Below are positions 14,394 through 56,347 of a DNA stretch of 64,000 nucleotides, piece after piece (within the stretch, counting starts at the first letter, position 1; each line of letters starts with the position of its first letter). This DNA comes from Bacteroidota bacterium. GTDB lineage: Bacteria > Bacteroidota > Bacteroidia > Flavobacteriales > Schleiferiaceae. A program made the translations under genes and the position numbers. The notes beneath the pieces are model-generated. The model saw nothing but the letters and a program-made list of their open reading frames with translations. It searched no databases and was not told where the DNA came from. The stretch is from contig JANSYJ010000001.1 of the NCBI GenBank assembly GCA_024742495.1, positions 248,001-312,000 on the forward strand. Direction: 5' to 3'.

Positions 14394-14420
14394 AATCATA
14401 AAAACCTTCGTAAACTCAAA

Positions 14421-14449
14421 GCCCTAGCGAATTTGCTAGGGCTTTTTTT
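14421..14449 (+). terminator. terminator after paralogue 1
   Basis: Perfect 8-bp arms GCCCTAGC (14421-14428) and GCTAGGGC (14435-14442) with a 6-nt loop, then seven T. It ends transcription 28 nt after the paralogue 1 stop, so paralogue 2 needs its own promoter. Confidence 0.9.
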
Positions 14450-14544
14450 ATGCTTTTTGGCTCTCACTCAGTTAAAGGGACTATAGGTTTCTTTGCTCTT
14501 TCAAGAGCCTTGCTTCGGCCTTAGTTTAGATTTAAAATTAAGCT

Positions 14545-16956: not shown

Positions 16957-16975
16957 TTGAGTCTGCAATGATAAT

Positions 16976-17025
16976 AGCTTCGGTTTAGGGTAAAAGGTCT
17001 TAAACCGAAGCTAATTTTACCCTAA
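16976..17025 (+). promoter_or_regulatory. two overlapping, mutually exclusive inverted repeats between paralogues 2 and 3
   Basis: Dyad A pairs AGCTTCGGTTTA (16976-16987) with TAAACCGAAGCT (17001-17012), 12 perfect pairs. Dyad B pairs TTAGGGTAAAA (16985-16995) with TTTTACCCTAA (17015-17025), 11 perfect pairs. The 5' arms overlap and the A 3' arm lies in the B loop, so both cannot form at once. No T-run follows. It could be the 3' end of paralogue 2 mRNA, a leader switch for paralogue 3, or a DNA dyad. Confidence 0.55.
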
Positions 17026-17114
17026 GCTTCCACTAAGAGAGAGGCCCGTTCAACTAAATCGAGCTTTACGCTTAGGCAGTCATTTTATATTTTCACCTAC
17101 CAATCAAGTTCTGT

Positions 17115-19427
17115 ATGTTAACCTATATTAAGAATTCGCTTCTCTTCCTTTTTTTATGCATTGCCATTAGCCCGGCCAAAGCCAGTCATGACAGTTATGG
17201 TGAAATATATTATCGCTGGGCTCCAACTGCTACCGACTCACTTCGCTATGAAATTATTGTTGATTGGTTTTGGCATCTCGCCGGAGCGAGCAGTAATGCT
17301 ACCGAGGATATTTGCATTAGAAGCAGTTGTTTTAGCGATACAACTATCAGCTTAAATAAGCTCATTCCACCTAGCCATTTGGCTGCAGCAGGAGATCCTA
17401 GTGCTTGGGCCATAGTAACCGAGAATAGTTGCGCGGATAGCAATGATCCCAATTACAGCCGCCTTCAAATTATGCGTTATAGCGGCTTTATAAGTTTACC
17501 GGGAACCTGTGGCGATTTCAAATTCTCAACTATAGGTGCACCCTATACCTACGGTCTCAGTGATAACCTCAATTCTTCTAGCCTTAATTTTTATCTAGAG
17601 GCAACTTTAAACAATACGCTCGGGGAAAGTTCCTCGGCTCAAATCACCAGTTCTCCCATGGTGAGTTTATGTGTGAAACCATCTACCGCCCTCGAAAGCA
17701 TTTTCTATCAACATGCTTTTGACCCAGAAGGAGACAGTATCGTTTACCGCTTGAGCCATTCCTTAGGAGGTCCCATTTGTGGTCCTTCCGGTCCAATTCC
17801 CTATTTACCTGGCTTTACCTCCAATAACCCTATTCCCAGTCATACTGGTTTAAACTTCGATCCACGTTACGGGCGATTTGCCCTTAAAGCAAGTCAGCAA
17901 GGTTCTTATAATTTAAGGGTAGTGGTGGAGTCTTGGACCTTTGATCCTATCTCTTTGCAATGGCTGATGCAAAGCAGCTCCAGCAGAGAAATCGCTGTGG
18001 GTGTTACCGCGAACTGTGATCCCCTGAGTCAGACTAGTCTAAACCTCAACTCTTCTATGCCAGGCATCTACAGTCAAAATTATTTTAGTGGATCACAAAT
18101 AGATAGTTTACGAGGAGCATATAATGTTAATCAAATCCACATCGACTCCGCTGCTGGCACTTCAATTAGCTTTTACAACGATTACCAGTGTCTCCAGTCC
18201 CTTATCCCCTTGGAGTTTGATAAAGCCCTTCGAAAGAATAGCGTGGATGAGACCGATTTTAGAGTCTTAGGACCAGATAGTATTGCCCGTCCCGTGCTGG
18301 CCATTATAGACAGCTGCGATAGTGATCTCTGTTCAAAAATATACCTGCAACTATTACACCCTCTCGTGAAAAACGGGAACTATCTATTGCAAATAAAAAC
18401 CGGGAATGATGGCAATACTCTTATCAGCGAATGCGGATATATGGTGCCTGAGTTTACAAGTTTCATTATACCCTTGAATAACTGCCCTAGCCCTAGCTAT
18501 CAGTTAAACCAAGTGACCTTAAAAGATGATCGCAATATAATGGTTCATTGGACGGGAAGTCCCGAGCTACAAGACTCATCGGTTTATGCCCTTTTCCAAT
18601 CTTGGGATCTTTTTGTAAGCAAGAACAATGGCCCTTGGCAGCTGGAGAAAAGAATTTTGGATCCCCTTGCCCGTCGTTATCAGATGGACTTTGGAGGCAG
18701 CAGACAGGAGGTCGATCAGAATAATTACAAGTTTAAGCTAGATCTTAATTATGCCGGTTCCAAATGGGGAGAAACCCGCTCTTGTACTAATATTCTCCTT
18801 CAAAGCAGCTCCGTGCAAAGTACCGCTGTGGCTGATGTGGTGCAGCTTCAATGGAATCACTATGAATGCTTGCCGGCTAATTCGCGGAAGTATTACCTGC
18901 AATACGGGCGCTACCATCAAAATATAAACATCAATTGGCAGCCCCCAATCATTGTGCAAGGAAACTCAGCGAGTATCAGTCTTCCAAAAACCGCCGGGTC
19001 TGGCACTTACGCCATTCGTGTGTATGCTCGAGCAGATGGAAATCGGCTTTTACCCTCCGAATCAAATTGGCTGATGCATGATATGAGCCTTGACCCTAAT
19101 CAAGTAAGTGGCCAGCAAAGTTCCTGGATAATACCCAATTTAATAAGTCCGAATGGCGATGGACAAAATGATCGATTCTTCTTTATTATTCCACCTGCCG
19201 ATGCTGGGGTTCAGCAAATTGCATTGCGCATTTATAATAGAGATGGGGTTTTAAAGTTTGAAGACTTGGCCTTCCAAAATAATAACAATCCCAATATGGG
19301 TTGGGACGGAAGCGACCTCAATGGCAATGCGGTAGCAAAGGGAGTTTACTTTTATCTTATAAGTTACATCAATCCCAATACCGGTCAAAATGTAAACCTA
19401 CAAGGTAGTGTAAGTGTGCTTCGTTAA
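17115..19427 (+). CDS. T9SS-secreted surface protein, tandem paralogue 3
   Basis: A 770 aa member of the tandem family. Signal peptide MLTYIKNSLLFLFLCIAISPAKA; mature start SHDSYGEIYYRWAP. The N-terminal module is recognisable (IRSSCFSDTT, PGTCGDFKF) but the double cysteine CCRD of copies 1, 2 and 4 is lost, replaced around GAPYTYGLSD, and the RCSS cysteine has become RKNS, so at least one disulphide has changed. The sorting domain at 671-770 is intact (IPNLISPNGDGQNDRFF, LRIYNRDGVLKFED, GVYFYLISY). It sits 158 nt after copy 2; TATATTTT at 17086-17093 is a weak -7 candidate. It groups with copy 4 by loss of the RCSS cysteine and by its FN3-like region. Function unknown. Confidence 0.87.
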   Translation: MLTYIKNSLLFLFLCIAISPAKASHDSYGEIYYRWAPTATDSLRYEIIVDWFWHLAGASSNATEDICIRSSCFSDTTISLNKLIPPSHLAAAGDPSAWAIVTENSCADSNDPNYSRLQIMRYSGFISLPGTCGDFKFSTIGAPYTYGLSDNLNSSSLNFYLEATLNNTLGESSSAQITSSPMVSLCVKPSTALESIFYQHAFDPEGDSIVYRLSHSLGGPICGPSGPIPYLPGFTSNNPIPSHTGLNFDPRYGRFALKASQQGSYNLRVVVESWTFDPISLQWLMQSSSSREIAVGVTANCDPLSQTSLNLNSSMPGIYSQNYFSGSQIDSLRGAYNVNQIHIDSAAGTSISFYNDYQCLQSLIPLEFDKALRKNSVDETDFRVLGPDSIARPVLAIIDSCDSDLCSKIYLQLLHPLVKNGNYLLQIKTGNDGNTLISECGYMVPEFTSFIIPLNNCPSPSYQLNQVTLKDDRNIMVHWTGSPELQDSSVYALFQSWDLFVSKNNGPWQLEKRILDPLARRYQMDFGGSRQEVDQNNYKFKLDLNYAGSKWGETRSCTNILLQSSSVQSTAVADVVQLQWNHYECLPANSRKYYLQYGRYHQNININWQPPIIVQGNSASISLPKTAGSGTYAIRVYARADGNRLLPSESNWLMHDMSLDPNQVSGQQSSWIIPNLISPNGDGQNDRFFFIIPPADAGVQQIALRIYNRDGVLKFEDLAFQNNNNPNMGWDGSDLNGNAVAKGVYFYLISYINPNTGQNVNLQGSVSVLR

Positions 19428-19446
19428 GATTAATTTGAAGGAATGC

Positions 19447-19471
19447 TCACCCCTAGTTTCGACCGGGGTGA
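19447..19471 (+). terminator. possible weak terminator after paralogue 3
   Basis: Arms TCACCCC (19447-19453) and GGGGTGA (19465-19471) form a 7-bp stem with an 11-nt loop, 20 nt after the stop codon. No T-run follows, so it may only stabilise the mRNA end. Confidence 0.35.
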
Positions 19472-19511
19472 AATCCCTTTAGCTATAAATCGGCAAATCC
19501 TAGGCGAATAC

Positions 19512-19542
19512 TTGAATAGGCTTAGGGCATTTGTTATTTTTA
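19512..19542 (+). promoter_or_regulatory. promoter of the fourth tandem T9SS paralogue
   Basis: TTG (19512-19514), a 20-nt spacer and TATTTTTA (19535-19542) resemble the Bacteroidota promoter; the last base of the -7 box is A instead of G, exactly as before paralogue 1. The surrounding GTTATTTTTACATT is nearly identical in the two. Confidence 0.5.
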
Positions 19543-19575
19543 CATTGATTCGCTTATTTTCTTAAACCTAACCTT

Positions 19576-21894
19576 ATGCAAGCTAAACCTACCTGTTTCG
19601 TCTTTTTACTTTTTCTTTCCTCCGCCTTTATAAACCCTAGTTATGCTGGGCATTTTAGCGCAGGAGAAATCTATTATGAGTGGGCTCCAATTCCCACAGA
19701 TTCTAACCGCTATGAAGTTTTCGTCCATTACTATCGCAACACCTCTGGCGCCAGCATAGTACAGAACACAGTTTCCGTTTGTATTCGAAGTTCTTGTTTT
19801 ACGCAAATGACGATTACCGCGAATAAGATATTACCTCCTCCTGGCCTCGCTTCCCCGAATGATCAAAATGGAGGCTGGATTGTACAAGGAATAGATGATT
19901 GTGCCGACCCGACTGACCCTAACTATAAGGGATTAGCTATCCATAAATATTCGGGCTTCGTTAGTCTGCCTAACCCCTGCGGTGACATTCGCTTTAAGGT
20001 TAGCGCACCTTGCTGCAGAGATCTTAGCACAAATATGGCTACAAATCCACACTTCTTTATCGAAGCTGGTCTTAACAATACTTTGGGCCCTTCTTCTTCG
20101 CCCAAAATTACCAGTAGCCCTGGAATGGGGCTCTGTATAATTGGCCCCAACGATTCGCCTTTTAAGTTTGAGCAATTAGCGGTTGATAGTGACAATGATA
20201 GTGTTTTCATGGCATTAACCCAACCCACTGGAGGTGTTCTATGTGTTGATTCAGCGCCACTTATACCTTATTCAGCCGGCTATAGTGCAATAAACCCTTT
20301 TAAGGGCTGGCAGCCCGTTCAAATTAATCAACAGACCGACGTACTCTCAATTTACCCTAAGCAGCAGGGAAATTATTTGATGAAAATAAAAGTGGTGAAT
20401 TTTAGGTTTGACCCTCTTACTTTGAGCTGGATTGATATTGGCTTCTCCGTGAGAGAAATGAGTATACCGGTAACGGCCGCCTGTGTTAACGCAGATAGAG
20501 TTGGTTTTAGCGAAATCATAAGCGACAGCATACATAGCGGAACTTGGTTCCAAACCGCATCGATAGACAGTCTTAAAAATGCCTATAACCTTTCCAACAT
20601 TTATTCCGATACCCTAGTTAGCTACGTGGGAGAACTCCTAAACCAAGATTGTTGGAGTAAATACATCCGAGTTGAGTTTAACTCCCCTTATCAGAAAAAC
20701 AGTATTGACCCAACTGACTTTAGAATATATGGCCCGGATAGTTCCATTTTACCTGTAATTGGTGTGTTAGACAGTTCTACTAGTCTCTTATATACTGATG
20801 AAATATACCTCGAACTTTTAAACCCTCTGCTTGATTCTGGCAACTACCTATTGCAGATAAGGCCTGGAAATGATGGCAACACCCTTTTGGGAAAGTGTGG
20901 AAGAGTAGTTGAACCTTATAGCGTTTCTATAATTCCCGTAGCGGCTTGTCCAAGTCCGAGCTATAATTTAAGCAAAGTGGAAGTTTTGGACGATCAGAAC
21001 ATAGCGCTACAATGGACGGCAAATGCCGTTTTAAACCAAGCGGCAGTAGCCGATATTTTCGGAGGTTGGGATGTTTATGTTCGGGAAAACCAAGCGCCAT
21101 GGGCTTTGCATCATTCAGTAGATAGCGCCTCAGCCAGATCCTATACGCTGCCCTTTAATGGCCCTTATCCAGTTGATCATAATCAATATGAATTTTACCT
21201 TGACATGCGCTATGGTGGCAAGAATTGGGGGAGTTCCAATCAAGGAGTACAGCTATTGCTTAGTTTGGATTCCATCCAAGCTGGAATTAGCGAGGATAGT
21301 TTAATTTTTAGCTGGAATGACTACAATTTAATTCCTGCTGCAGACCGTGCATATATATTGGAATATGGCATTTATATCAGGCCCGATTCCATCGTTTGGC
21401 AAAACACCAGTTCTGTTCAAACTATCTCTAATAGTGCCCGCCTGAATATTGTTAAGCCCATCGTCGGGTCTAATATTATTGTTGCACGACTACGCGCTAT
21501 TAATCAGCAAAATCAACAAGCTAATTCTCAGTCTAATTGGATTCCTTACAGTCCAATCGGAATTCCAGTGGGTTTAACTGAAATTAAAAACCCCAAATGG
21601 TTTGTTCCCAACCTCATACTACCCAATGAAAATGATGGTAACGAACTCTTCATTATTGCTTATGATGAGCCTACGGAAATGCCGGATTTTGGCTTGAAAA
21701 TATTTGATACTTCTGGGAATTTAGTCTTCAAGGCTGCCAATTATAAAGCGCTAAATAACAGCTCTAGAGCTTGGAATGGTCATAGTGCTAATGGCCAGCT
21801 AATGCCGCAAGGCCTCTACATTTACCTGATTGAATATCAAGATAAATCAGGACAAAAAAAGGTGCATTCTGGGCGCCTAAGCATCGTTCATTAA
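19576..21894 (+). CDS. T9SS-secreted surface protein, tandem paralogue 4
   Basis: A 772 aa member of the tandem family with signal peptide ending NPSYA and mature start GHFSAGEIYYEWAP. The N-terminal module is well kept (IRSSCF, LPNPCGDIRF, APCCRDLS), while the middle and C-terminal parts have drifted. The sorting domain at 675-772 still shows VPNLILPN, LKIFDTSGNLVFKA and GLYIYLIEY, but the hallmark TPNGDGxND block reads LPNENDGNELF. Whether this copy is still handled by the T9SS as a type B substrate is therefore less certain. It ends in a terminator shared with accC on the opposite strand. Confidence 0.85.
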   Translation: MQAKPTCFVFLLFLSSAFINPSYAGHFSAGEIYYEWAPIPTDSNRYEVFVHYYRNTSGASIVQNTVSVCIRSSCFTQMTITANKILPPPGLASPNDQNGGWIVQGIDDCADPTDPNYKGLAIHKYSGFVSLPNPCGDIRFKVSAPCCRDLSTNMATNPHFFIEAGLNNTLGPSSSPKITSSPGMGLCIIGPNDSPFKFEQLAVDSDNDSVFMALTQPTGGVLCVDSAPLIPYSAGYSAINPFKGWQPVQINQQTDVLSIYPKQQGNYLMKIKVVNFRFDPLTLSWIDIGFSVREMSIPVTAACVNADRVGFSEIISDSIHSGTWFQTASIDSLKNAYNLSNIYSDTLVSYVGELLNQDCWSKYIRVEFNSPYQKNSIDPTDFRIYGPDSSILPVIGVLDSSTSLLYTDEIYLELLNPLLDSGNYLLQIRPGNDGNTLLGKCGRVVEPYSVSIIPVAACPSPSYNLSKVEVLDDQNIALQWTANAVLNQAAVADIFGGWDVYVRENQAPWALHHSVDSASARSYTLPFNGPYPVDHNQYEFYLDMRYGGKNWGSSNQGVQLLLSLDSIQAGISEDSLIFSWNDYNLIPAADRAYILEYGIYIRPDSIVWQNTSSVQTISNSARLNIVKPIVGSNIIVARLRAINQQNQQANSQSNWIPYSPIGIPVGLTEIKNPKWFVPNLILPNENDGNELFIIAYDEPTEMPDFGLKIFDTSGNLVFKAANYKALNNSSRAWNGHSANGQLMPQGLYIYLIEYQDKSGQKKVHSGRLSIVH

Positions 21895-45521: not shown

Positions 45522-46532
45522 TTACTTAGTATTCCTTTCGATGAAATCAAATATTTGGGGGTAATAACCGTGGTATAATGGCGCGTAGTTAGAAGTCTTG
45601 TATTTAGAAGCGCCGGCGATTCTGATGTACTCTAAATCCTGACCATCTACAAAACCTCTTTGGCGAGCGGTATTGGCAATGGGGTCGGTGCCGTAGCCTG
45701 GTAAGTTCGCATAAGTGTAGGTGCCAATAATACGCGTTCCGTCTGTAAAATGAGTGTCCCAGTGGTTTATAAGCATCATCGCCGCATCACTGCGATCAAT
45801 CATGTTTTTATCGAAACTGTAAGTGAACATGCCCAAATATCCGCGCACCTTGGTGCTGGCACCGGGATTATCGTTATTGTCGAAGCCATGTGTATTTACC
45901 GCGTTTGAAACCAGCATTCTGTGTGTTGGATTAACAATCCCTGAAATTTCGCTGGAATCCATATAAGCTGTAATGAAGGCCACCATAGCTCCAGAACTCC
46001 AGCCACCGATGAAGATATTCGCGGTATCCACCTTATACTGCTCGGCATTTAAACGGAAGAATCGTATTGAAGAGCGAAGGTCCTGATTCGCTTTAGTAAT
46101 GGTATTATAATCTGGGGACCCACCGCTATACTTTACTACTGCCGCCTGATATCCTTTAAGCGCCAATGAAGTAGCAAACTGTCTTAATTTGGGCATCTCC
46201 GTGTAAGAGGTAAATCCACCCCCGGGTGCAAGTATAATGAGCGGGCGAGGTCCATCTTCCCCATCAAGAGAGGTGAAAAACTCGGCTTGATGAACGCTAT
46301 CCGACCCATAAGCAAAGGTTTGGGACTGCACCGAGCTTCCAAAAACAAAGGTTCTACCCGAATCTGGTACATGCACAAAATCTGGATCTGCACTTATAGC
46401 AAACTCCGCAACGCTAGAAGTGGATGGTTGCGTGTTATTAAAGTCTTCATTGTTCTTTTCACAAGCGCTTAATAAAAGGATAGCCATTGCGCTTAAAGCT
46501 AGTTGACGAGAATTTAATTTTGAAACTTTCAT
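45522..46532 (-). CDS. alpha/beta-hydrolase (esterase-like) lipoprotein
   Basis: A 336 aa lipoprotein with signal MKVSKLNSRQLALSAMAILLLSAC (lipobox LSAC, Cys24) and an acidic Asn/Ser spacer after it. The alpha/beta-hydrolase fold is indicated by the oxyanion-hole segment APGGGF (102-107, equivalent to HGGGF) and the nucleophile elbow GWSSG with Ser179. A likely catalytic His lies in LYHGYYP near the end. The family hydrolyses carboxyl esters; substrate unknown. The gene stands alone, converging with the rpoN operon and diverging from the AraC-STAND operon. Confidence 0.82.
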   Translation of the reverse strand: MKVSKLNSRQLALSAMAILLLSACEKNNEDFNNTQPSTSSVAEFAISADPDFVHVPDSGRTFVFGSSVQSQTFAYGSDSVHQAEFFTSLDGEDGPRPLIILAPGGGFTSYTEMPKLRQFATSLALKGYQAAVVKYSGGSPDYNTITKANQDLRSSIRFFRLNAEQYKVDTANIFIGGWSSGAMVAFITAYMDSSEISGIVNPTHRMLVSNAVNTHGFDNNDNPGASTKVRGYLGMFTYSFDKNMIDRSDAAMMLINHWDTHFTDGTRIIGTYTYANLPGYGTDPIANTARQRGFVDGQDLEYIRIAGASKYKTSNYAPLYHGYYPQIFDFIERNTK

Positions 46533-46751
46533 AGTATCTGTTTTTTGGTTTTACAATTTCACTGCAGCAAACCTAGCTCGGGTATTGGCCTCAGATTTAG
46601 CAGTTATGTTGTAAATGATTTAAGCACTGGACGAAGTTGAAAATTTAAGTCATCATTCATCTTTAAGACATGTTGCAAAGACTTGAACATATGATGCATG
46701 AGGCCACTTTGCGACTTATATATAGTACTTTAGACTCGTTGTCATTAGGCC

Positions 46752-48212
46752 ATGAACCCATTAAACAGCCCACATATACCCCCTCAAGCGAAAGCCAATA
46801 TGTCTATGGACGAGCGCTTTTTGCAGAAACTCCAAGAGCATGTCCTCCAGAATCTTCAGGTAGAAGATTACAGCGTGGAGGACCTGGCTCAGGAGGTGGC
46901 TTTTAGTCGGTCGCATCTCTATCGGAAACTGCAAAGTTTAACCGGTCTCTCCATCTCGCAATTCATTCGTAAAGTTCGCCTCGAAAAGGCCTATGAGCTG
47001 CTCCAAGACGAGGTGGCTACCATATCGGAGATTGCTTACTCAGTAGGCTTTGGCAGTAGCACATATTTCAGTAAATGCTTTCATGAGGAATACGGCTTTC
47101 CGCCGGGCGAATTAAAAAAGCGCCCCGCTTCCGAGCAAAATCCTAACTCAAAAGTGACCTTGGCCGTAAAACCAAACGCCAATAGCGCCATTGAAGCTTT
47201 ACATCCCGGCAGCAGTGGCGAGCTAATTGAAGAACTCTTTCGCTCCTTAATTCCTTTTAAACCGAGTTTAGAAAAGTTTGTCATCATTGATGAAGAGGAG
47301 GGTGAAAGTTTAGACCCCAGATTATTAGCTTATCAAACTATAAAGTGTTTTCCCTGGCCCTTGGGAGTGGAGCTACGTCGTTTGTTCTCCGCAAGCTTCA
47401 AGCAAGTCTCCGAGGAACGTTATCATCAAAGTTTAAAAACCCTGCGTAAAACCTTACGGTTTTGCTCCTTTTTAATGATTGCAGAGCTTTTAGAGCTTAT
47501 TCAAAATAAAGGCCAACTCGAAAGCTTAAAGGGAAAAGGCAAGGCCATCAGCGATGCGATAATGCGCATGGCCGATCCAGATTTCCTATTTCTATTTAAT
47601 GCCCTTTCTACTCCTTTAAGAGAAAACGAAAGCTTATTTATCCCTGAGCTATGTGAGCTCAACGATCCGGTATTAAACCGAGAATTGGAAGCATGGCTGG
47701 ATATGCTGGAGGAGGCCGATAATTTAGATTTAGCTATTCGCTGTCAAACGGTTGATCAATCCTTAAACTTAATCCTAAAAAAGGTTGGCTTCTTAGCCCG
47801 CTATCGCCTTGTAAACATTAGCGAAATTCAAGTCTTAAAAAACAAGTTTCAAGAGGCGGAATACGAACATCACTATCACTTTTTAAACGCGGTAGATGCC
47901 GACTTTAAAGCGCATGCCGAAAAGCTCCATCAATTTGCAGATTCCCAATCCGTTCTGCTCATGAGCAGCATAAGAGAAACCAAACATTTCTTAAACCTTT
48001 CGCCCTTTTTAGTAGACACTTACGACTCTGTAAAATCGCTGCAAGGGGCAAGTTCCCGCCGCGATGTTTTTCTGCTTCAAAGCGTTGACAAGGATAGGCT
48101 CTATTTTGAAGGCTCCGATCTCAATCGAACGGAGGACCTCAGCTCCGAGCGTCATTTCCCAATCTGGATGAATGCTTTTCGAAAAAGTATTCAATTATTA
48201 AACACCCTATGA
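46752..48212 (+). CDS. protein with N-terminal AraC-type DNA-binding domain and unrecognised C-terminal region
   Basis: A 486 aa protein, first of a five-gene overlapping operon. The AraC double helix-turn-helix is at the N-terminus (about 17-120: YSVEDLAQEVAFSRSHLYRK, then ISEIAYSVGFGSSTYFSKCF), unlike standard AraC regulators, where it is C-terminal. The remaining roughly 350 residues look mostly helical (LRKTLRFCSFLMIAELLELI, LNRELEAWLDMLEEADNL) and match no family I know. There is no signal peptide, so it should be cytoplasmic. A second ATG at 46800 (MSMDERFLQ) may be the true start. Its stop overlaps the STAND gene ATG (ATGA), suggesting coupled synthesis and perhaps physical partnership. 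DNA binding is strongly implied; target unknown. Confidence 0.85.
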   Translation: MNPLNSPHIPPQAKANMSMDERFLQKLQEHVLQNLQVEDYSVEDLAQEVAFSRSHLYRKLQSLTGLSISQFIRKVRLEKAYELLQDEVATISEIAYSVGFGSSTYFSKCFHEEYGFPPGELKKRPASEQNPNSKVTLAVKPNANSAIEALHPGSSGELIEELFRSLIPFKPSLEKFVIIDEEEGESLDPRLLAYQTIKCFPWPLGVELRRLFSASFKQVSEERYHQSLKTLRKTLRFCSFLMIAELLELIQNKGQLESLKGKGKAISDAIMRMADPDFLFLFNALSTPLRENESLFIPELCELNDPVLNRELEAWLDMLEEADNLDLAIRCQTVDQSLNLILKKVGFLARYRLVNISEIQVLKNKFQEAEYEHHYHFLNAVDADFKAHAEKLHQFADSQSVLLMSSIRETKHFLNLSPFLVDTYDSVKSLQGASSRRDVFLLQSVDKDRLYFEGSDLNRTEDLSSERHFPIWMNAFRKSIQLLNTL

Positions 48213-50782
48213 GCCAATCCAAGCCCATATCGCCCTATAAATTTTTAGACTCTTACGGTTTAGATGATGCCCCATTCTTTTTTGGTAGAGAAAAAGAAAT
48301 AGAAGAGGCTTACCAGAAGGTTTTTCAAAGTCGCATCTTACTAGTTTACGGTGCTTCCGGTACTGGTAAATCCAGCCTTATTCAATGTGGGCTTGCCAAT
48401 CAATTTAGGTCATCGGATTGGATGCCCATAAATGTGCGTAGAGGCGGACATGTGCTGCGCTCCATGCAAAGGCAGCTCGAAAAGAATTGCAGCCTCGATG
48501 CCAAGCTTGATAGTAATATCCTTCCGCAGCCCCGCGATATTCAGGCTTTAGTACAGCAGGTTTTTTTAGATCACTTCAAACCCATCTATTTCATATTTGA
48601 TCAGTTTGAAGAGTTATTCATCTTTGGCAATCGCGAAGAGTGGGAGCTCTTTGGACAAACCATCCAAGCTTTGTTACAGAGCGAATTGGATATACACTTC
48701 ATCTTCGTTGTTCGCGGCGATTACCTCGAATACCTCAATGAATTTGAGAAGGAAATTCCGGGTTTTTTCGACAATCGCCTGAGGGTTGAAAAAATGTCGG
48801 CCCGACAAGCAGAGGAGAGCATTAAAGGACCCGCAGCCGCAGGTGGAATTAAACTTGAAGAAGGATTTGCCGAAACGCTTTTACAAAGACTAAGCGGACC
48901 TCAACATGCGGTAGAACCGACCTTCCTGCAGGTATACCTCGATAAACTCTTTCAGGTGCAAGGGGCTAAGGCCGCTTTTCGCAAAGAGGATTTAGATAAA
49001 ATTGGTCCTATTGACGATATCCTCGGTGAATTCGTTGATGAGCAGGTATTTAAAATGGAGGAGCCAAAGCTCGCCTGGTCAATTCTTAAGTGTTTTGTAT
49101 CCCTCGATGGAACGAAATTGCCCTTGCCTAAGAATGAAATTGCCAAAGTTTTAGGTCAGCTTGGGGTAAATTGCCCGGCCGATAAACTGCAAAACTACCT
49201 GGAGGAACTCGTATCGAAACGCATTTTAAAAAGTGCCGATGAAGAATCTCGCCTCGAATTAAGACACGACAGCTTGGCGCTTAAAATTTATGAGCGCATT
49301 TCATTGCAAGAAAAAGAGCGTCTTGAAGTACAGCGCTTTTTAAACCTTAGCTTTAAGGAGTTTCAAAAAAGAGGAACTCTCTTAAAGGAGGAAGACCTAG
49401 CTTATATCGCGCCTCATGAGCGTAAATTAGACTTAAGCGCAGAGATGACGATGTTCATTGAACGCAGTCGGAAAAACTCTATATCCGCAAGACGAAAGGC
49501 ACGCAATCAAAGAATAATAGCCCTTCTGATTCTGCTCTTAGCCTTAAGCTCATTGGGCGGTTGGTATTACAGTGGCCTCGAAAAAGAACGCGCCAATGCC
49601 GAAGCGGCCCGAGCGCAAATTGAATCGAATAAGGCTAAAAATCAAAAGGAAATAGCCGAGGCCCAAAAAGAGAAAGCCCTAAGCCAAGAGGCGGAAGCTC
49701 TTAAGCAGGCCCAGCTAGCGCAAGCGGCCGAAAACCTAGCAGAGGAAAAATCGCAAAGGGCCATTGCGGCCGAAAAAGAGGCACGTTTGGAAAAACAAGC
49801 TGCCGACGAAGCAAGGGCCTCAGCGCAGCTAAACGCCCAAGAAGCCTTAAGTCAAAAAGCTAAAGCGGAAGTCGCTAGGGCGGAGGAAACACGACTTCGT
49901 AGAATTTCTCAAGCACGACAAATGGCGTTAAAGGCCCAGCAAATGGAATTTCCGGCAAGAGCGCAACTCGCCCTGCAGGCATTTCTTTTACATAAAGCGC
50001 AAAAGGGAGACCCCGAAGAAGCGGCCATTTTTGAAGCGCTACTTGCTGCAAAACGCAGCAAATTAAAAGATCCATTCTTGCTGCAAAACCTTGAAGTCCA
50101 AATTGTTGATTTTGTTCGGAGCCCGGCTGGAATTCGATTGCAAAGTAACGATGGAGCGCTTTATGAATGGGAGAACTCCAAGCTAAGCTTAATAGAAGCG
50201 GCTCCTCAAGGTTTTTCACATCAAAACAAATTGGATGAAGCCGGCGGCTACAAAATTAGAGCCACCGAAAATGGACAGTTGTTCTACGAAAATCCTCAGG
50301 GTGAAGAGGCTGAACTTAGCTTAAAAACGGAAGATTTATCGGTTGTGAAAATTAGTGCTGATGGGCAGTGGATTGCATGGGGCCAGCAAAATGGTTCCCT
50401 TTTCGCCTACCATGTGCCTAGTGGCGAACGCCGACAGTTACCTGCCCATTACAGCGCGGTGAGTGATCTTAGCTTTAGTCCTAATTCCCAGCAACTCGCT
50501 TCTAGTGGCTACGATAGAATGGTGCAGATTTGGGATCTTCAAAATCTTAATAAAAGCCCGCGCCGGATTAACAACCTTGCCTTTTGGGTGGCCTGTATCG
50601 AATTTGGACCTAAGGATAATCTTTGGGTAAACACCTATGAAGGTCAGCTTTATAAATTTCCCCTGAAGACCCAGGCTTTACACCATTTTCTTTGTGCCGA
50701 TGCCCTCCCTCTTCCCAGCGCTAAAGAGTGGCAACAATGGGCGGCTGAAGGTATCCCTCTAAAAAATCCCTGCCAACCATGA
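48209..50782 (+). CDS. membrane-anchored STAND NTPase with coiled coil and WD40-like C-terminus
   Basis: An 857 aa protein of the nSTAND1 kind. An FFFGREKEIEEAY helix leads into Walker A GASGTGKSS (48-56); Walker B is IYFIFDQFEEL (126-136). A helical wing carrying LRHDSLALKIYERI follows. A basic stretch (RRKARNQR) precedes the only membrane span (about 436-455). After it comes an Ala/Glu/Lys coiled coil (about 456-570), then RISQARQMALKAQQ and WD40-like blades, clearest at 747-775 (SDLSFSPNSQQLASSGYDRM). Positive-inside logic puts the NTPase in the cytoplasm and the WD40 end in the periplasm. STAND proteins act as ligand-gated switches. Overlaps neighbours by 4 nt on both sides. Confidence 0.88.
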   Translation: MSQSKPISPYKFLDSYGLDDAPFFFGREKEIEEAYQKVFQSRILLVYGASGTGKSSLIQCGLANQFRSSDWMPINVRRGGHVLRSMQRQLEKNCSLDAKLDSNILPQPRDIQALVQQVFLDHFKPIYFIFDQFEELFIFGNREEWELFGQTIQALLQSELDIHFIFVVRGDYLEYLNEFEKEIPGFFDNRLRVEKMSARQAEESIKGPAAAGGIKLEEGFAETLLQRLSGPQHAVEPTFLQVYLDKLFQVQGAKAAFRKEDLDKIGPIDDILGEFVDEQVFKMEEPKLAWSILKCFVSLDGTKLPLPKNEIAKVLGQLGVNCPADKLQNYLEELVSKRILKSADEESRLELRHDSLALKIYERISLQEKERLEVQRFLNLSFKEFQKRGTLLKEEDLAYIAPHERKLDLSAEMTMFIERSRKNSISARRKARNQRIIALLILLLALSSLGGWYYSGLEKERANAEAARAQIESNKAKNQKEIAEAQKEKALSQEAEALKQAQLAQAAENLAEEKSQRAIAAEKEARLEKQAADEARASAQLNAQEALSQKAKAEVARAEETRLRRISQARQMALKAQQMEFPARAQLALQAFLLHKAQKGDPEEAAIFEALLAAKRSKLKDPFLLQNLEVQIVDFVRSPAGIRLQSNDGALYEWENSKLSLIEAAPQGFSHQNKLDEAGGYKIRATENGQLFYENPQGEEAELSLKTEDLSVVKISADGQWIAWGQQNGSLFAYHVPSGERRQLPAHYSAVSDLSFSPNSQQLASSGYDRMVQIWDLQNLNKSPRRINNLAFWVACIEFGPKDNLWVNTYEGQLYKFPLKTQALHHFLCADALPLPSAKEWQQWAAEGIPLKNPCQP

Positions 50783-51807
50783 AACAACTTTTAACCCCCC
50801 TCCTATTTTTATGTTTTCAACTTCCTGCGCAAAGTTGTTTGCAAAACTTGGAAGAAGCCCAAATCGCCTATTTCAACGGTCGCTTTTCCGCCTGTATCGA
50901 ATTGCTTGAAAGCTGCGCCCCTGAGCTCAAGGAAAAAGCAGATCGCGTAAAGGCCTATGAGCTACTAGCGAAGAGCTTTGAAATGATAAAGAGTAGAGAT
51001 AAAGCGCTCATTGCTATGCAAAACTTGCTGCAAGAAGACCCCTTTTATCGCACCAGACCCAGCTTAAGCATTTCATTGGAGGAGCTCCGTTCACAGTTTA
51101 AGCTTCAAAAGCAATGGCATTTTGGATTGGAGGCCTCCTACCTTCAAAATAATTTGGAAGCCCTTAAATACTGGTCTTTCTCCGGAGATGCAGCGCAGCA
51201 AACTGTAAGTGCCTCACCGGGTTTGCAGTTTGGCCTATGGTCGAGTTATCAATTGTGGAAAGGGCTGCGGCTTCAAGCGGGAGTTTATTACCAATGGCTT
51301 GAAACGGAGAGTTCCGAGCTTCAGCAAGGCTACCTGCTTCAAAGCAGTTCCGAGACCTATCAATTTTGGAAGCCCTCTTTTGGCTTGGAGTACGAACAAG
51401 ATTTAAAGCGTTTATCGCTATTCCTAGGTGCGGGTGCTAGCTTGCAGTTTTTACAAAGCGCTCAAGGTGATTTGCGCTTAGATCCCCAAGAGAGCGATTT
51501 TCCAACCGCCTTCCCTGGCTTTCCCGAAAAGATAGAAAACGCCGATCTCAACTTCCAAAGGCAAAAGATGCTTCCATCCCTGTACTTAGAGTTCGGCATT
51601 CGTGTACCCTTTGGCTATAATCAAGTACAGTTCTCTTACCGATACAGCTTGGGTCAGCGAAATATGGTACTCCACGATGAACGCTATTCCAAGGAAGTTT
51701 TTTATCAAAACCTCGGCTACATACCCGATGATTACATCCTACATACTGGGTCCATCAACATCAGTTTTGTGCGCAGTATTATCCGGCCTAAACGAAGAAT
51801 GTTATGA
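50779..51807 (+). CDS. TPR plus beta-barrel outer-membrane protein
   Basis: A 342 aa exported protein (signal MKQLLTPLLFLCFQLPAQS). Residues about 20-105 form two or three TPR-like helix pairs (AQIAYFNGRFSACIELLESC, AYELLAKSFEMIKSRDKALI). The rest (about 115-340) is made of alternating strands typical of small outer-membrane barrels in Bacteroidota (LQFGLWSSYQLWKGLRLQAGVYYQW, LYLEFGIRVPFGYNQVQFSYRYSLG). It overlaps the STAND gene before it and the lipoprotein gene after it by 4 nt each, so the three are translated together. Role unknown; a link from the outer membrane to the periplasmic part of the STAND protein is inference. Confidence 0.8.
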   Translation: MKQLLTPLLFLCFQLPAQSCLQNLEEAQIAYFNGRFSACIELLESCAPELKEKADRVKAYELLAKSFEMIKSRDKALIAMQNLLQEDPFYRTRPSLSISLEELRSQFKLQKQWHFGLEASYLQNNLEALKYWSFSGDAAQQTVSASPGLQFGLWSSYQLWKGLRLQAGVYYQWLETESSELQQGYLLQSSSETYQFWKPSFGLEYEQDLKRLSLFLGAGASLQFLQSAQGDLRLDPQESDFPTAFPGFPEKIENADLNFQRQKMLPSLYLEFGIRVPFGYNQVQFSYRYSLGQRNMVLHDERYSKEVFYQNLGYIPDDYILHTGSINISFVRSIIRPKRRML

Positions 51808-53090
51808 GAAAAGGTTTACTTATTTACGCCCTGGCTTTGCTAAGTATAGCTTGCCAAAAAGAAGAGGCTGAAAGGGCGGCAGTTTTTGTAAAAAGTTATG
51901 GGCTGCAAGGAAACAGTCGCTTAAATGATGTTTTGGAATTGGCCAATGGCGATTTACTTTTTTGCGGTCAAGTATCAAAACCGGCCTTCATTAGCAATGC
52001 CTCCTCGGATATTAGCGGTGGTACGCTCGAAGAAAGCTCCCCGGCGCTAATACTAACCGATGCTGAAGGAAACTTAAAAGAGCAACGCCTTTACCCTATA
52101 AATTACGCAGATATCGATCCTGCCATTGAAATCGATGATTTATATGGTTTGGCGAATTTCTTAGAAGTACTGCCCCTTGCAAATGGCGGTTATTTGGTTC
52201 ATGGCGAATTCCGTGGTTTTGGATTTGATATACCCACCGTAAATCTCTCCAGAGAAAGAAGCACCAGTAATTCCACCCCCTTCCTAGCCCGCTTTAATGC
52301 TAATCTCGAAATGCTGGAATTTCAAAATCTAAATGGCAGTCCGCCCTGGGATAGGCGACTTTATTCGGGCGGAGTTTTAAAAGCCAAACCAGATCAATCC
52401 GGTTTTGTATTTATGATAGGTTTTAGCGTGGGCTTTCCAGGTGGCTTTTTAGGCTATCGCCTTATGGAACTTGACGAGAACGGTCAAGAGATAAAAACCA
52501 CCTCCTTTTACAATAGCTCAGAACTAAAGTTTGCCCGCGATTTTACTTTTTTAAATGATGATGAAATTGGCGTCGTTGGCCAGCTTGGGGGTGATTACCA
52601 AATCTTTCGGGTAGATGCAGGAAGCTTTTTTGAATTTACCAAGGTATTCCTGGCTCCAGATGGTACCAATCAAACCTTTAATGACAATGCCATTTTAATT
52701 GAAAAACTTGCTGGTGGCGAGGTCTTTTGTTTCTATACCCAACCGGTTGAAATAAACTACATGCACATTCTCGACTCTCGTTTAGCCTCCCAAAGCAAGG
52801 AGGATTTAGAGCCCGATCATATCGACCAATATCCTTTGAAAAGCAATATCTGTCGCAATGGAGATGTTTTGCTGACTTGTATCGATTTGGAAGATGAGTT
52901 TATTGAACGCAGTCATGTTTATCGAATCAGCCCCGAAGGAGAGGTGCATTGGAAACGCACTTATAACGGTCGCGTGCAACAAATAAAGGAAAGTGCCGAT
53001 GGTGGCATTTTTGTTTTAGCCGATCTGTTTTACAGCGGAGGAAACCGAAAGGGAACTTTTTACAAAATCAGCGCCAATGGTACGTTCTAA
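51804..53090 (+). CDS. lipoprotein with beta-propeller-like repeats
   Basis: A 428 aa lipoprotein: signal MRKGLLIYALALLSIAC (lipobox SIAC, Cys17). The mature part has recurring blocks such as NDVLELANGDLLFCGQV, LEVLPLANGGYLVHGEF and IKESADGGIFVLADLF, which suggest a beta-propeller of the delta-60 or Kelch-like sort found in secreted Bacteroidota proteins. No catalytic motif. It overlaps the barrel gene by 4 nt and the next lipoprotein gene by 14 nt. Probably periplasmic or surface-exposed; a sensor or ligand-binding role is speculation. Confidence 0.78.
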   Translation: MRKGLLIYALALLSIACQKEEAERAAVFVKSYGLQGNSRLNDVLELANGDLLFCGQVSKPAFISNASSDISGGTLEESSPALILTDAEGNLKEQRLYPINYADIDPAIEIDDLYGLANFLEVLPLANGGYLVHGEFRGFGFDIPTVNLSRERSTSNSTPFLARFNANLEMLEFQNLNGSPPWDRRLYSGGVLKAKPDQSGFVFMIGFSVGFPGGFLGYRLMELDENGQEIKTTSFYNSSELKFARDFTFLNDDEIGVVGQLGGDYQIFRVDAGSFFEFTKVFLAPDGTNQTFNDNAILIEKLAGGEVFCFYTQPVEINYMHILDSRLASQSKEDLEPDHIDQYPLKSNICRNGDVLLTCIDLEDEFIERSHVYRISPEGEVHWKRTYNGRVQQIKESADGGIFVLADLFYSGGNRKGTFYKISANGTF

Positions 53091-53628
53091 ATATTTGCTT
53101 GTTCTTTTAATTTTCTTGGGCGCTTGCGCTGAAAGCGATTCCCCAATTGAGCCTTCACCCGCTAAGGGAATAATCGGCCTTTGGCAATACGAGTATTTAG
53201 TTGTGGCCGATAGCCTGGAAACGCCCTTCGCCAATAATCGAATGGAGCCCGGCACCTTTAAAGGTACTCTCGGAGGTGAAAGAGCAGAAATTAACCGTCG
53301 GCAAGTGCGCTATTTTGAAGACGGCACCTATCAGCTGCTGTGGCTAGATCGAGGTTCCTATCAGCTGGGCACAGAAGACAGTCCCAACTGGCAACCCTCC
53401 TATGGTTTGTATCAAGTTTCAGCCGGGGAAGACAGTCTTTGGCATAATGCCCCATTTTACTATGCTTATCCCTACTCCATCCGTATTGATGGCGACACCC
53501 TAATACGAACTTCTCAACGCTATATGAGTAGCAATAGTCGCGATTTCAACGGAGCTCCTTTTCAGTCTTTATGGAATAGCGGCGATCGGGTACAATACAA
53601 AGAGGTTTTCATTCGTCTATCTGAATAG
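53077..53628 (+). CDS. small lipocalin-like lipoprotein
   Basis: A 183 aa lipoprotein with signal MVRSKYLLVLLIFLGAC (lipobox LGAC, Cys17), then IIGLWQYEYLVVAD, which resembles the opening GxW strand of lipocalin-like domains in Bacteroidota. Further strands (VRYFEDGTYQLLW, YSIRIDGDTLIRT) fit a small barrel. It is the last gene of the overlapping operon; its ATG is inside the previous gene. Function unknown. Confidence 0.78.
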   Translation: MVRSKYLLVLLIFLGACAESDSPIEPSPAKGIIGLWQYEYLVVADSLETPFANNRMEPGTFKGTLGGERAEINRRQVRYFEDGTYQLLWLDRGSYQLGTEDSPNWQPSYGLYQVSAGEDSLWHNAPFYYAYPYSIRIDGDTLIRTSQRYMSSNSRDFNGAPFQSLWNSGDRVQYKEVFIRLSE

Positions 53629-55498: not shown

Positions 55499-56347
55499 AT
55501 GAAGATGTATGACGAAAGGATTATCAGCTATCGCGGTCGTCCTCTATTTCAAACGGCTAAAATTAGCTCGCCCTATGAAGCGGCCAATCGCTTGGAAGAT
55601 GTGGCCTGCTTTTTCTACATCCTTAAAGGTTGTATAGATACCATAGAGGCTAGTGGCGAAAGACGTTCAAAAAACCAGGAGGGACTGCTAAAAAGCTGCG
55701 GGAATTTTATCTCCCGCTATCATCCCGATCAGGATGGTAGTGATTTTGAAGCAGCGGTAATCTACTTCTATCCCGATGTGCTGAAGGAAATCTATCGCAA
55801 CGATCTTCCTCCTTTTGTTTTAAACGATGCCAAGGCGATGCCTCCAAAAAAAGTAGTGGGCAATGCCCTCATCCAGCGTTTTATGGAAGGTCTTTTTGTG
55901 TACTTCGAAAATGAGGAGTTGATGGATGAAAATCTGGCCCGCCTTAAAATACAAGAGCTGGTCATGATTCTTTTAAAGTCCAACTACTTTGAAGGGGTAG
56001 TAAGTTTTTTCCAAGGACTATTTGCGCCTAAGTCCGCTACTTTCCGTCAGGTGGTTGAGAATAACCGCTTTAGCAATATTAGTGTCGATCAACTGGCCTT
56101 TCTTTGTCATCAAAGTTTATCCTCTTTTAAACGAAATTTCAAATTAGAGTTTGGAGAAAGCCCAGCGCGCTACCTTAAAAATGAAAAATTAAAGGAGGCG
56201 GCGAAAAAGCTCCTGCACACGCAGGACAGCATCAGTGCAATTGCATACGATTGCGGTTTTCAGGATCCAAGCACCTTTTCCAGTCTTTTTAGTGAGCGCT
56301 TTGGCCTTTCGCCGAGAGCCTATCGTCAGGACCAAATCAGAAAGTAA
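55499..56347 (+). CDS. AraC-family transcriptional regulator
   Basis: A 282 aa regulator with classical layout: an N-terminal cupin-like sensing region (about 1-170) and a C-terminal AraC helix-turn-helix pair (FSNISVDQLAFLCHQSLSSFKRNF, then SISAIAYDCGFQDPSTFSSLFSERFGLSPRAYR). Many Bacteroidota regulators of this form act on a neighbouring gene. The START-like gene follows after 64 nt on the same strand and could be its target. No convincing -7 box is seen in the gap after lysS. Inducer unknown. Confidence 0.9.
   Translation: MKMYDERIISYRGRPLFQTAKISSPYEAANRLEDVACFFYILKGCIDTIEASGERRSKNQEGLLKSCGNFISRYHPDQDGSDFEAAVIYFYPDVLKEIYRNDLPPFVLNDAKAMPPKKVVGNALIQRFMEGLFVYFENEELMDENLARLKIQELVMILLKSNYFEGVVSFFQGLFAPKSATFRQVVENNRFSNISVDQLAFLCHQSLSSFKRNFKLEFGESPARYLKNEKLKEAAKKLLHTQDSISAIAYDCGFQDPSTFSSLFSERFGLSPRAYRQDQIRK

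Follow-up and report, generated by a model that had tools for sequence, protein, structure and literature searches.

We analyzed a window of 64,000 nucleotides from a Bacteroidota bacterium of the Schleiferiaceae (Flavobacteriales; assembly GCA_024742495.1, contig JANSYJ010000001.1, positions 248,001 to 312,000), in which five overlapping genes encode a protein with an AraC-type helix-turn-helix (HTH), a STAND NTPase with a predicted transmembrane (TM) helix, a predicted outer-membrane beta-barrel protein and two putative lipoproteins (Table 1). An earlier interpretation of this DNA from its letters alone (the sequence-only reading) had proposed that the five genes form one operon for signaling across the cell envelope. 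The gene structure holds up: five open reading frames (ORFs) lie on the plus strand with overlaps of 4, 4, 4 and 14 nucleotides, the first three of them ATGA. The assignments hold up as well, namely an AraC HTH (Pfam: PF12833), an nSTAND1 NTPase (Pfam: PF20703) with TM helix and WD40 repeats, a TPR/barrel protein whose single-sequence Pfam barrel matches fall below the cut-off, and two lipoboxes seen by eye. The unit, however, has six genes rather than five; the divergent esterase gene upstream had been overlooked.

Table 1. Genes and candidate regulatory sites of the six-gene unit (positions in the window)
Feature	Position	Strand	Description
Gene 1	46752-48212	+	AraC HTH (approximately residues 19-125) fused to coupling domain (approximately residues 154-486)
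Gene 2	48209-50782	+	nSTAND1 NTPase 9-388, TM 436-454, long helix 462-576, short WD40-type propeller 632-818
Gene 3	50779-51807	+	Signal peptide, periplasmic TPR, outer-membrane beta-barrel (predicted)
Gene 4	51804-53090	+	Propeller-like lipoprotein, approximately 400 amino acids; fold guessed from repeats
Gene 5	53077-53628	+	Small lipoprotein, 183 amino acids; lipobox by eye
Sixth gene	45522-46532	-	BD-FAE-type alpha/beta-hydrolase esterase lipoprotein, divergent; candidate target gene
Shared divergent regulatory region	46533-46751		219 bp; four-way alignment
ATGTTG half-site	46606-46611	+	At matching place in 4/4 copies
Tandem half-sites ATGTTGCAA and ATGATGCAT	46670-46699	+	21 bp apart; spacing kept in 4/4 copies
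-7-like promoter element TACTTTAG	46726-46733	+	35 bp after start of last half-site

Do these genes belong together? The sequence-only reading had suggested asking whether its five genes co-occur in this order across Bacteroidota. They do, and all six genes are found together in 4 of 395 genomes of the order, from two families (G000, G017, G499 and the frame-broken G508); these four are also the only genomes in which the order search finds the C-terminal part of gene 1, which we call the coupling domain. In this search and in the class searches described below at most five candidates were scored per genome, so that the counts are lower bounds. In G017, which belongs to the same genus, the overlaps are 4, 4, 4 and 17 nucleotides by the chosen starts. 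In G499, from the other family, all six homologues keep the matching arrangement, with the esterase gene divergent beside the AraC gene (as also in G508) and with overlaps of 4 (genes 1-2), 4 (genes 3-4) and 17 nucleotides (genes 4-5); its gene 3 has several candidate starts. The copy in G508 (L184, 8659-15528), a genome of the same family as G499, has gene 1 in three frames and genes 2 and 4 each split, and may be either a decaying copy or the product of assembly errors.

By eye, the block is surrounded by housekeeping genes (AsnRS, RpoN, LysS) and a PAP2-like gene. Within the genus the esterase is present in two of seven genomes, both of them operon carriers. A tree of four flanking genes does not place these two genomes as sisters. 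Among the five non-carriers, G014, G015, G018 and G019 have the PAP2-like gene and lysS (by eye) side by side, and in G016 a further gene stands between them. Because the carriers are not sisters and the flanks are adjacent in four of the non-carriers, the six genes appear to have been gained or lost as one block. Nine proteins from the window flanks, sought beside the G499 and G508 copies, do not recur there, save for an AraC-type flank protein that cross-matches gene 1. It is encoded by the ORF directly 3' of lysS (55499-56347), whose C-terminal end resembles an AraC HTH and which matches the homologues of gene 1 in G499 and G508. We regard the six genes as almost certainly one functional unit.

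The product of gene 1 (486 amino acids) contains a complete AraC HTH (80 of 80 Pfam positions, E = 8e-20), and its structure model matches AraC-family HTH chains in a fold search with Z up to 9.6. The HTH is the best conserved part that we measured, with 87% identity to G017 and 53% to G499; over the whole of gene 1, identity between the window and G499 is 40%. Within the family, the proteins closest to this HTH are AraC-TM-TPR regulators from the same genus, with identities of up to 51%, which suggests that gene 1 arose by domain fusion.

The intergenic region between the esterase gene and gene 1 offers candidate operators for this HTH. Its length is similar in all copies (219 bp in the window; by chosen starts, the three relatives have 218, approximately 222 and 219 bp). 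In the four-way alignment, which includes short coding ends, 83 of 271 columns are invariant and the identity between families is 48-50%. The longest invariant runs are ATGTTGCAA (nine columns) and TATGTTG (seven). The alignment has three invariant runs that are six or more columns long, a number attained by none of 5000 column shuffles; 20 of the 5000 produced a run of nine. On the operon strand, every one of the four sequences contains three ATGWTG sites, where 0.12-0.22 would be expected; the last two of the three are the tandem pair. The 21 bp between the tandem half-sites is also the half-site spacing of E. coli AraC on direct repeats. A TAC(A)TTTAG element begins 35 bp after the last half-site in all four copies; we take TAnnTTTG to be the Bacteroidota -7 box, and name TACTTTAG a -7 box on that basis. 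This layout fits an activator that would touch RNA polymerase. Searched for in the whole genome, the 30-nucleotide tandem pattern has its sole match with zero mismatches at 46670-46699, and eight more matches with two or three mismatches, compared with a single one for the backwards control. Another tandem site, ATGTTGCAA-N12-ATGTTG with three mismatches to the full pattern, lies at G000:C2:179995-180024 (L194), between a gene for a 967 amino acid protein (its frame matches AraC HTH) and a divergent gene for a secreted-looking protein. Since the half-sites are conserved between families in the shared intergenic region, the AraC domain probably controls its own six-gene locus. That the AraC protein acts on this region (46533-46751) seems to us highly probable from site conservation; that it activates the genes on both sides is the option toward which we lean.

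The approximately 330 C-terminal residues of gene 1, the coupling domain, have no Pfam match of weight and are thus uncatalogued. They have no match among PDB sequences at E up to 1, and in the fold search with gene 1 the only convincing match is that of the HTH, the helical-bundle rows for the coupling part (Z 5-7) being judged uninformative. Homologues of the coupling domain, on the other hand, are informative by their positions. They are found in at least 13 of 395 genomes of the class, and in 17 of 20 loci an nSTAND1 gene lies directly downstream (one of the others is at a contig edge and two have no nSTAND1 gene); the 20 loci are all rows of the class search except the window's own, G472:C2 and G393:C111. 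Some homologues are free-standing proteins of approximately 345 amino acids directly upstream of nSTAND1 genes (L009, L010, L012, L013, L015), with a small ORF in between in L017. Others form the C-terminal part of larger proteins, again encoded upstream of nSTAND1: CHAT proteins in L019, L021, L080, L081 and L091, and a caspase C14 protein in L020 (both by Pfam). Because the coupling domain is elsewhere fused to CHAT or caspase, the AraC domain of gene 1 stands where its relatives have a protease. We think it very likely that the coupling domain is the route by which the STAND protein influences the AraC domain.

The product of gene 2 (857 amino acids) has an nSTAND1 domain (E = 5e-41; 142 bits vs. 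a cut-off of 27.1) and C-terminal WD40 repeats in Pfam, and both nucleotide-binding motifs can be read from its sequence (Walker A, GASGTGKS; Walker B, YFIFDQFE). It is 42% identical to its homologue in G499. Its single TM window is preceded by eight K/R in 25 residues and followed by five. The AlphaFold model shows an NTPase fold, a helix across the membrane position, a helix of 115 residues and a short propeller. The five best fold matches are all Apaf-1 structures (Foldseek, E = 9e-16), with low whole-chain TM-scores of 0.18-0.26 by query length. The same architecture recurs in STAND proteins of the barrel-linked clusters described below. Each of the 20 examined has one TM window only, and after it come no fewer than 126 residues that lack proline and are rich in coil-forming residues; in 18 of the 20 there are more K/R before the TM window, on the NTPase side, than after it. 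If continuous, the 115-residue helix of the model would measure approximately 170 angstroms, of the order of the periplasm, so that the propeller could extend as far as a TPR domain located at the outer membrane. Two deep groups emerge in a tree of 37 STAND domains, one coupling-linked and one marked by PFPGLRPF, and barrel-linked members occur in both.

For the remaining genes, identity between the window and G499 is 28% for gene 3, 25% for gene 4, 37% for gene 5 and 35% for the esterase. The signal peptide of gene 3 was seen by eye. We considered whether gene 3 might be a TonB receptor and rejected this, as it is too short and has no plug match in Pfam; a link to type IX secretion was likewise rejected, there being no such Pfam match. 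The lipoboxes are LSIAC in gene 4 and FLGAC in gene 5. Gene 4 matches a profile of lipoproteins from STAND-barrel loci (E = 2e-6, with Z set to 5000); pairwise hhalign comparisons with the lipoproteins of L080 (E = 0.21) and L078 (E = 0.059) are not significant. Neither gene 4 nor gene 5 has a match in NCBIfam and Pfam, apart from one very weak NCBIfam row for gene 4. Gene 5 homologues stand at the corresponding place in G017, G499 and G508. A surface-export signal C-X-K-(D/E)2 is reported for Capnocytophaga in the excerpted text of PMC5080379, and the predicted mature gene 4 product, starting C-Q-K-E-E, fits it. Surface export of gene 4 is indicated weakly, because its relatives in G017 (C-S-R-D-E) and G499 (C-S-Q-E-A) do not fit. 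The divergent gene matches PF20434 (E = 5.5e-13) and has a lipobox by eye.

We are interested in whether the STAND, barrel and lipoprotein genes also travel together outside the six-gene unit. The clearest case is L080 (G414), where one run of genes encodes a CHAT-coupling protein, nSTAND1, a TM-coil-WD40 protein, a TPR-barrel protein related to gene 3 (phmmer, 3e-13) and a 402 amino acid lipoprotein. This is the cassette of the window, except that a CHAT protease stands in for AraC and that the STAND protein is divided between two ORFs. A profile built from seven barrels, all STAND-adjacent (A2), has at least 51 matches at E < 1e-20 in the 395 class genomes, in at least 30 genomes and at least 37 loci, six of the 37 being the source of the profile's own seeds; weaker matches, mostly partial, were dropped. 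The cluster contains a STAND gene with TM in 28 of the 37 barrel loci (22 of 31 without the profile seeds). As for the other nine, one lies at a contig edge with a WD40 end (G346), one is unjudgeable (G472:C173) and seven are without STAND. A lipoprotein of approximately 400 amino acids is present in 22 of the 28 STAND-barrel clusters, in six of them by lipobox and size alone.

Seen from the STAND side, 30 of 58 nSTAND1 genes in 32 chosen genomes adjoin a TPR-barrel gene (58 being 65 rows less seven second pieces of the same frames), and the other 28 have no listed barrel match nearby, most of their neighborhoods not having been fetched. The sequence-only reading had named STAND homologues regularly found without the other four genes as evidence that would tell against it. 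Half of this applies: the homologues are regularly without an AraC gene, yet the adjacency to a TPR-barrel gene recurs. Since most of the 32 genomes have at most two nSTAND1 genes each, we take the adjacency, as an informal judgment, not to be due to chance.

What varies is the neighbor in the output position. Beside the 28 clusters we find an AraC-coupling protein once (the window), a CHAT-coupling protein once, the coupling domain alone four times, a class III nucleotidyl cyclase with GAF five times (two divergent; Pfam E from 1e-50 to 3e-58 in all five) and a DUF4062-type or TIR_2+DUF4062 protein nine times (by a home-made profile; one lies a few genes away). The neighbor tallies given here (17/20, 28/37, 22/28, 30/58 and the output classes) were counted by hand. 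The earlier proposal of one trans-envelope STAND system with an AraC-like output is thereby well supported in one part, by co-occurrence in two families, by presence and absence as a block and by the recurrent core, and has to be revised in another, for AraC is one of several outputs.

Longer arrays are also seen. In L153/L178 (G212) and L152 (G273), long series of TPR-barrel and lipoprotein genes end in one STAND gene and a nucleotidyl cyclase; the G212 array has four barrels and several lipoproteins. In G021 (L045, 6084-10317) and G022 (L046, 7503-11714), a TM-coil-WD40 protein without STAND is followed directly downstream by a TPR-fronted protein which, by eye, has a plug-like stretch and a TonB-receptor-like length; ABC-transporter-like and permease-like genes seem to share an operon with this pair, which was left out of the counts. 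A pair of periplasmic coil/propeller and TPR-barrel may thus exist without STAND.

The gene association of the six-gene unit is strong; we infer from here on the membrane placement, the TPR-propeller and STAND-coupling contacts, DNA binding, activation as against repression, signal direction and ligand. It is tempting to hypothesize that the barrel and lipoproteins in the outer membrane would sense a ligand or surface state. The long coiled coil would carry the propeller away from the inner membrane, where the periplasmic TPR of the barrel could meet it, and this contact would open or oligomerize the STAND NTPase in the cytoplasm. The STAND platform might then engage the coupling domain of gene 1, so that AraC domains are brought together or freed on the tandem 21-bp half-sites, and their binding would switch on the operon (positive feedback) and probably the divergent esterase lipoprotein gene. 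Overall, we favor a trans-envelope signal system built round an Apaf-1-like STAND switch with exchangeable outputs, here transcription, as a moderately likely reading of the locus; an origin of the signal at the outer membrane, with passage from barrel-TPR to propeller, we regard as likely to about the same degree. As the unit includes an esterase, our guess for the ligand is an ester-bearing surface or a polysaccharide. The broader proposal, a general Bacteroidota class of apoptosome-like trans-envelope receptors in which a barrel/lipoprotein receptor of the outer membrane gates a STAND platform of the inner membrane via a periplasm-spanning coil, with a transcription factor, CHAT protease, TIR-like NADase or nucleotidyl cyclase as output, is tentative, and we put it at slightly under an even chance.

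Several observations weigh against this trans-envelope reading. Barrel genes occur without a nearby STAND gene in 7 of the 37 loci, in five genomes, one of which (G279) has no nSTAND1 match at E 1e-10; no recognizable output gene stands beside 8 of the 28 STAND-barrel clusters, and only 3 of the 8 DUF4062-type neighbors scanned with Pfam pass the cut-off, the rest being weaker or without a match. Of the 13 coupling proteins with a CHAT-like front, L080 is the one for which an adjoining barrel gene is seen. Gene 4 is tied to the wider lipoprotein family through the profile alone. The propeller part is short, extending 368-413 residues after the TM window in three measured copies vs. 500-528 in 17 relatives, and AlphaFold confidence is middling (mean predicted local distance difference test score 74 for gene 1 and 72 for gene 2, approximately 60 in the coil).

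Five of the seven barrel loci without STAND are in G407, G380 and G288, which have a single STAND-TM gene elsewhere in the genome, and G472 has four nSTAND1 genes elsewhere, away from its barrel locus. Several barrel/lipoprotein sets may share one STAND protein in G407, G380 and G288, a layout that suggests several receptors with one hub. The loci concerned in these three genomes are L155, L159, L165, L167, L169 and L196-L198, and G380 has three barrel/lipoprotein sets that lie apart from its STAND-TM gene; both G380 and G407 have a nucleotidyl cyclase encoded close to the STAND gene.

Three other explanations were weighed. The genes might be co-transcribed but functionally separate, overlaps by themselves indicating co-transcription only; the joint presence of the genes in two families with different flanks, and their joint absence at an otherwise intact site, make this very improbable. 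A conflict system against phages or toxins, in which barrel and lipoproteins detect an attack on the surface and STAND triggers a protective, here transcriptional, response, would account for the patchy presence in the genus, for a coupling domain common to CHAT and caspase proteins, for the killer-like neighboring enzyme of many relatives, and for the DUF4062/TIR-like genes that adjoin the STAND-barrel core (DUF4062 proteins are described as NADases in phage defense in the excerpted text of PMC13174449). Yet transcription from its own promoter and of an esterase would be an odd defense, and PADLOC returns partial or weak matches for genes 1-5, the best (8e-11) covering 132 of 1972 positions of HEAT-ARM_XIII. 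The neighbors are housekeeping genes by eye (AsnRS, RpoN, LysS), the flanks not having been scanned for defense genes. We consider a conflict system unlikely.

Slightly less likely still is a small locus for substrate uptake, in which the esterase and lipoproteins would handle an ester or glycan, the barrel would be a plain pore and the propeller would sense a periplasmic ligand without touching the barrel. A BD-FAE esterase next to conserved sites does resemble a regulated catabolic locus, and AraC regulators often control such loci, but the adjacency of STAND and barrel recurs with unrelated outputs, and apart from the esterase we saw neither a transporter nor a catabolic enzyme in the block. 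The trans-envelope signal system with exchangeable outputs thus remains the reading that we prefer.

Elsewhere in the window, four successive plus-strand ORFs of 770-803 amino acids (12018-21894) may be tandem paralogues, judged from their lengths alone.

The STAND switches described so far are, to our knowledge, mostly soluble proteins that sense infection or nutrients in the cytoplasm. A STAND protein with a periplasmic sensor tied to an outer-membrane receptor would explain signaling from surface to cytoplasm without a kinase or sigma factor, and would place gene regulation and programmed cell death on a common receptor chassis. If the general receptor class is real, it would provide one chassis for gene regulation, second-messenger signaling and cell death, and a third way of trans-envelope signaling in addition to the two-component and the sigma/anti-sigma systems. 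The AraC version offers a good way in, since its predicted promoter read-out is compact. Among the top matches in the open-licence PMC literature, as far as their excerpts go, we recognized no paper in which a STAND protein is linked with an outer-membrane barrel and with lipoproteins. STAND systems with exchangeable effectors are already known.

How does the proposed system compare with known ones? In FecA-FecR-FecI, an outer-membrane barrel with a periplasmic domain signals through a middle protein in the inner membrane to a cytoplasmic transcription output. The system of the window would have the same three-compartment layout, but its middle protein is an NTPase, and the matches that Pfam lists for the products of the six genes (for gene 2, the best 25 of 38 families) include no sigma/anti-sigma or TonB-dependent receptor domains. 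The hybrid two-component systems of Bacteroidota combine a periplasmic propeller sensor with an AraC HTH output, as is predicted here; in contrast, the switch here is an NTPase and the output is on a separate chain, and the matches that Pfam lists for genes 1 and 2 (again the best 25 of 38 families for gene 2) include neither a histidine kinase nor a receiver domain. In MalT-type activators, a STAND NTPase likewise controls transcription, but MalT combines a LuxR-type HTH and a cytoplasmic sensor in one soluble chain.

Similar in organization are the STAND conflict systems with effector-associated domains (Kaur et al. 2020, 2021; PMC7159879, PMC8195603), which, in their excerpted text, place nSTAND1 beside a protein with an exchangeable N-terminal effector and include HTHs in the effector position (an ECF-like HTH with TRADD-N, a CRP-like HTH). 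A STAND gene beside an effector with a shared adaptor is what we find here, the coupling domain being encoded upstream of nSTAND1 and fused to CHAT, caspase or AraC. The differences are that our coupling domain is approximately 330 amino acids long and uncatalogued in Pfam, and that no outer-membrane partner is described in those excerpts. The Swarozyc/DUF4062 NADases resemble the DUF4062-type genes in the output place of some cassette relatives; they differ in having a phage portal protein as trigger, and the excerpted text describes no trans-envelope partners (PMC13174449). A STAND target predicted to be periplasmic is mentioned in an excerpt of PMC10907252. In Apaf-1 and the apoptosome, which starts cell death in animals, a STAND NTPase is likewise followed by a WD40 propeller. 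Gene 2, however, has a TM helix and a long coil between NTPase and propeller, so that its sensor is predicted to be periplasmic, and its output would be a separate protein with an AraC domain.

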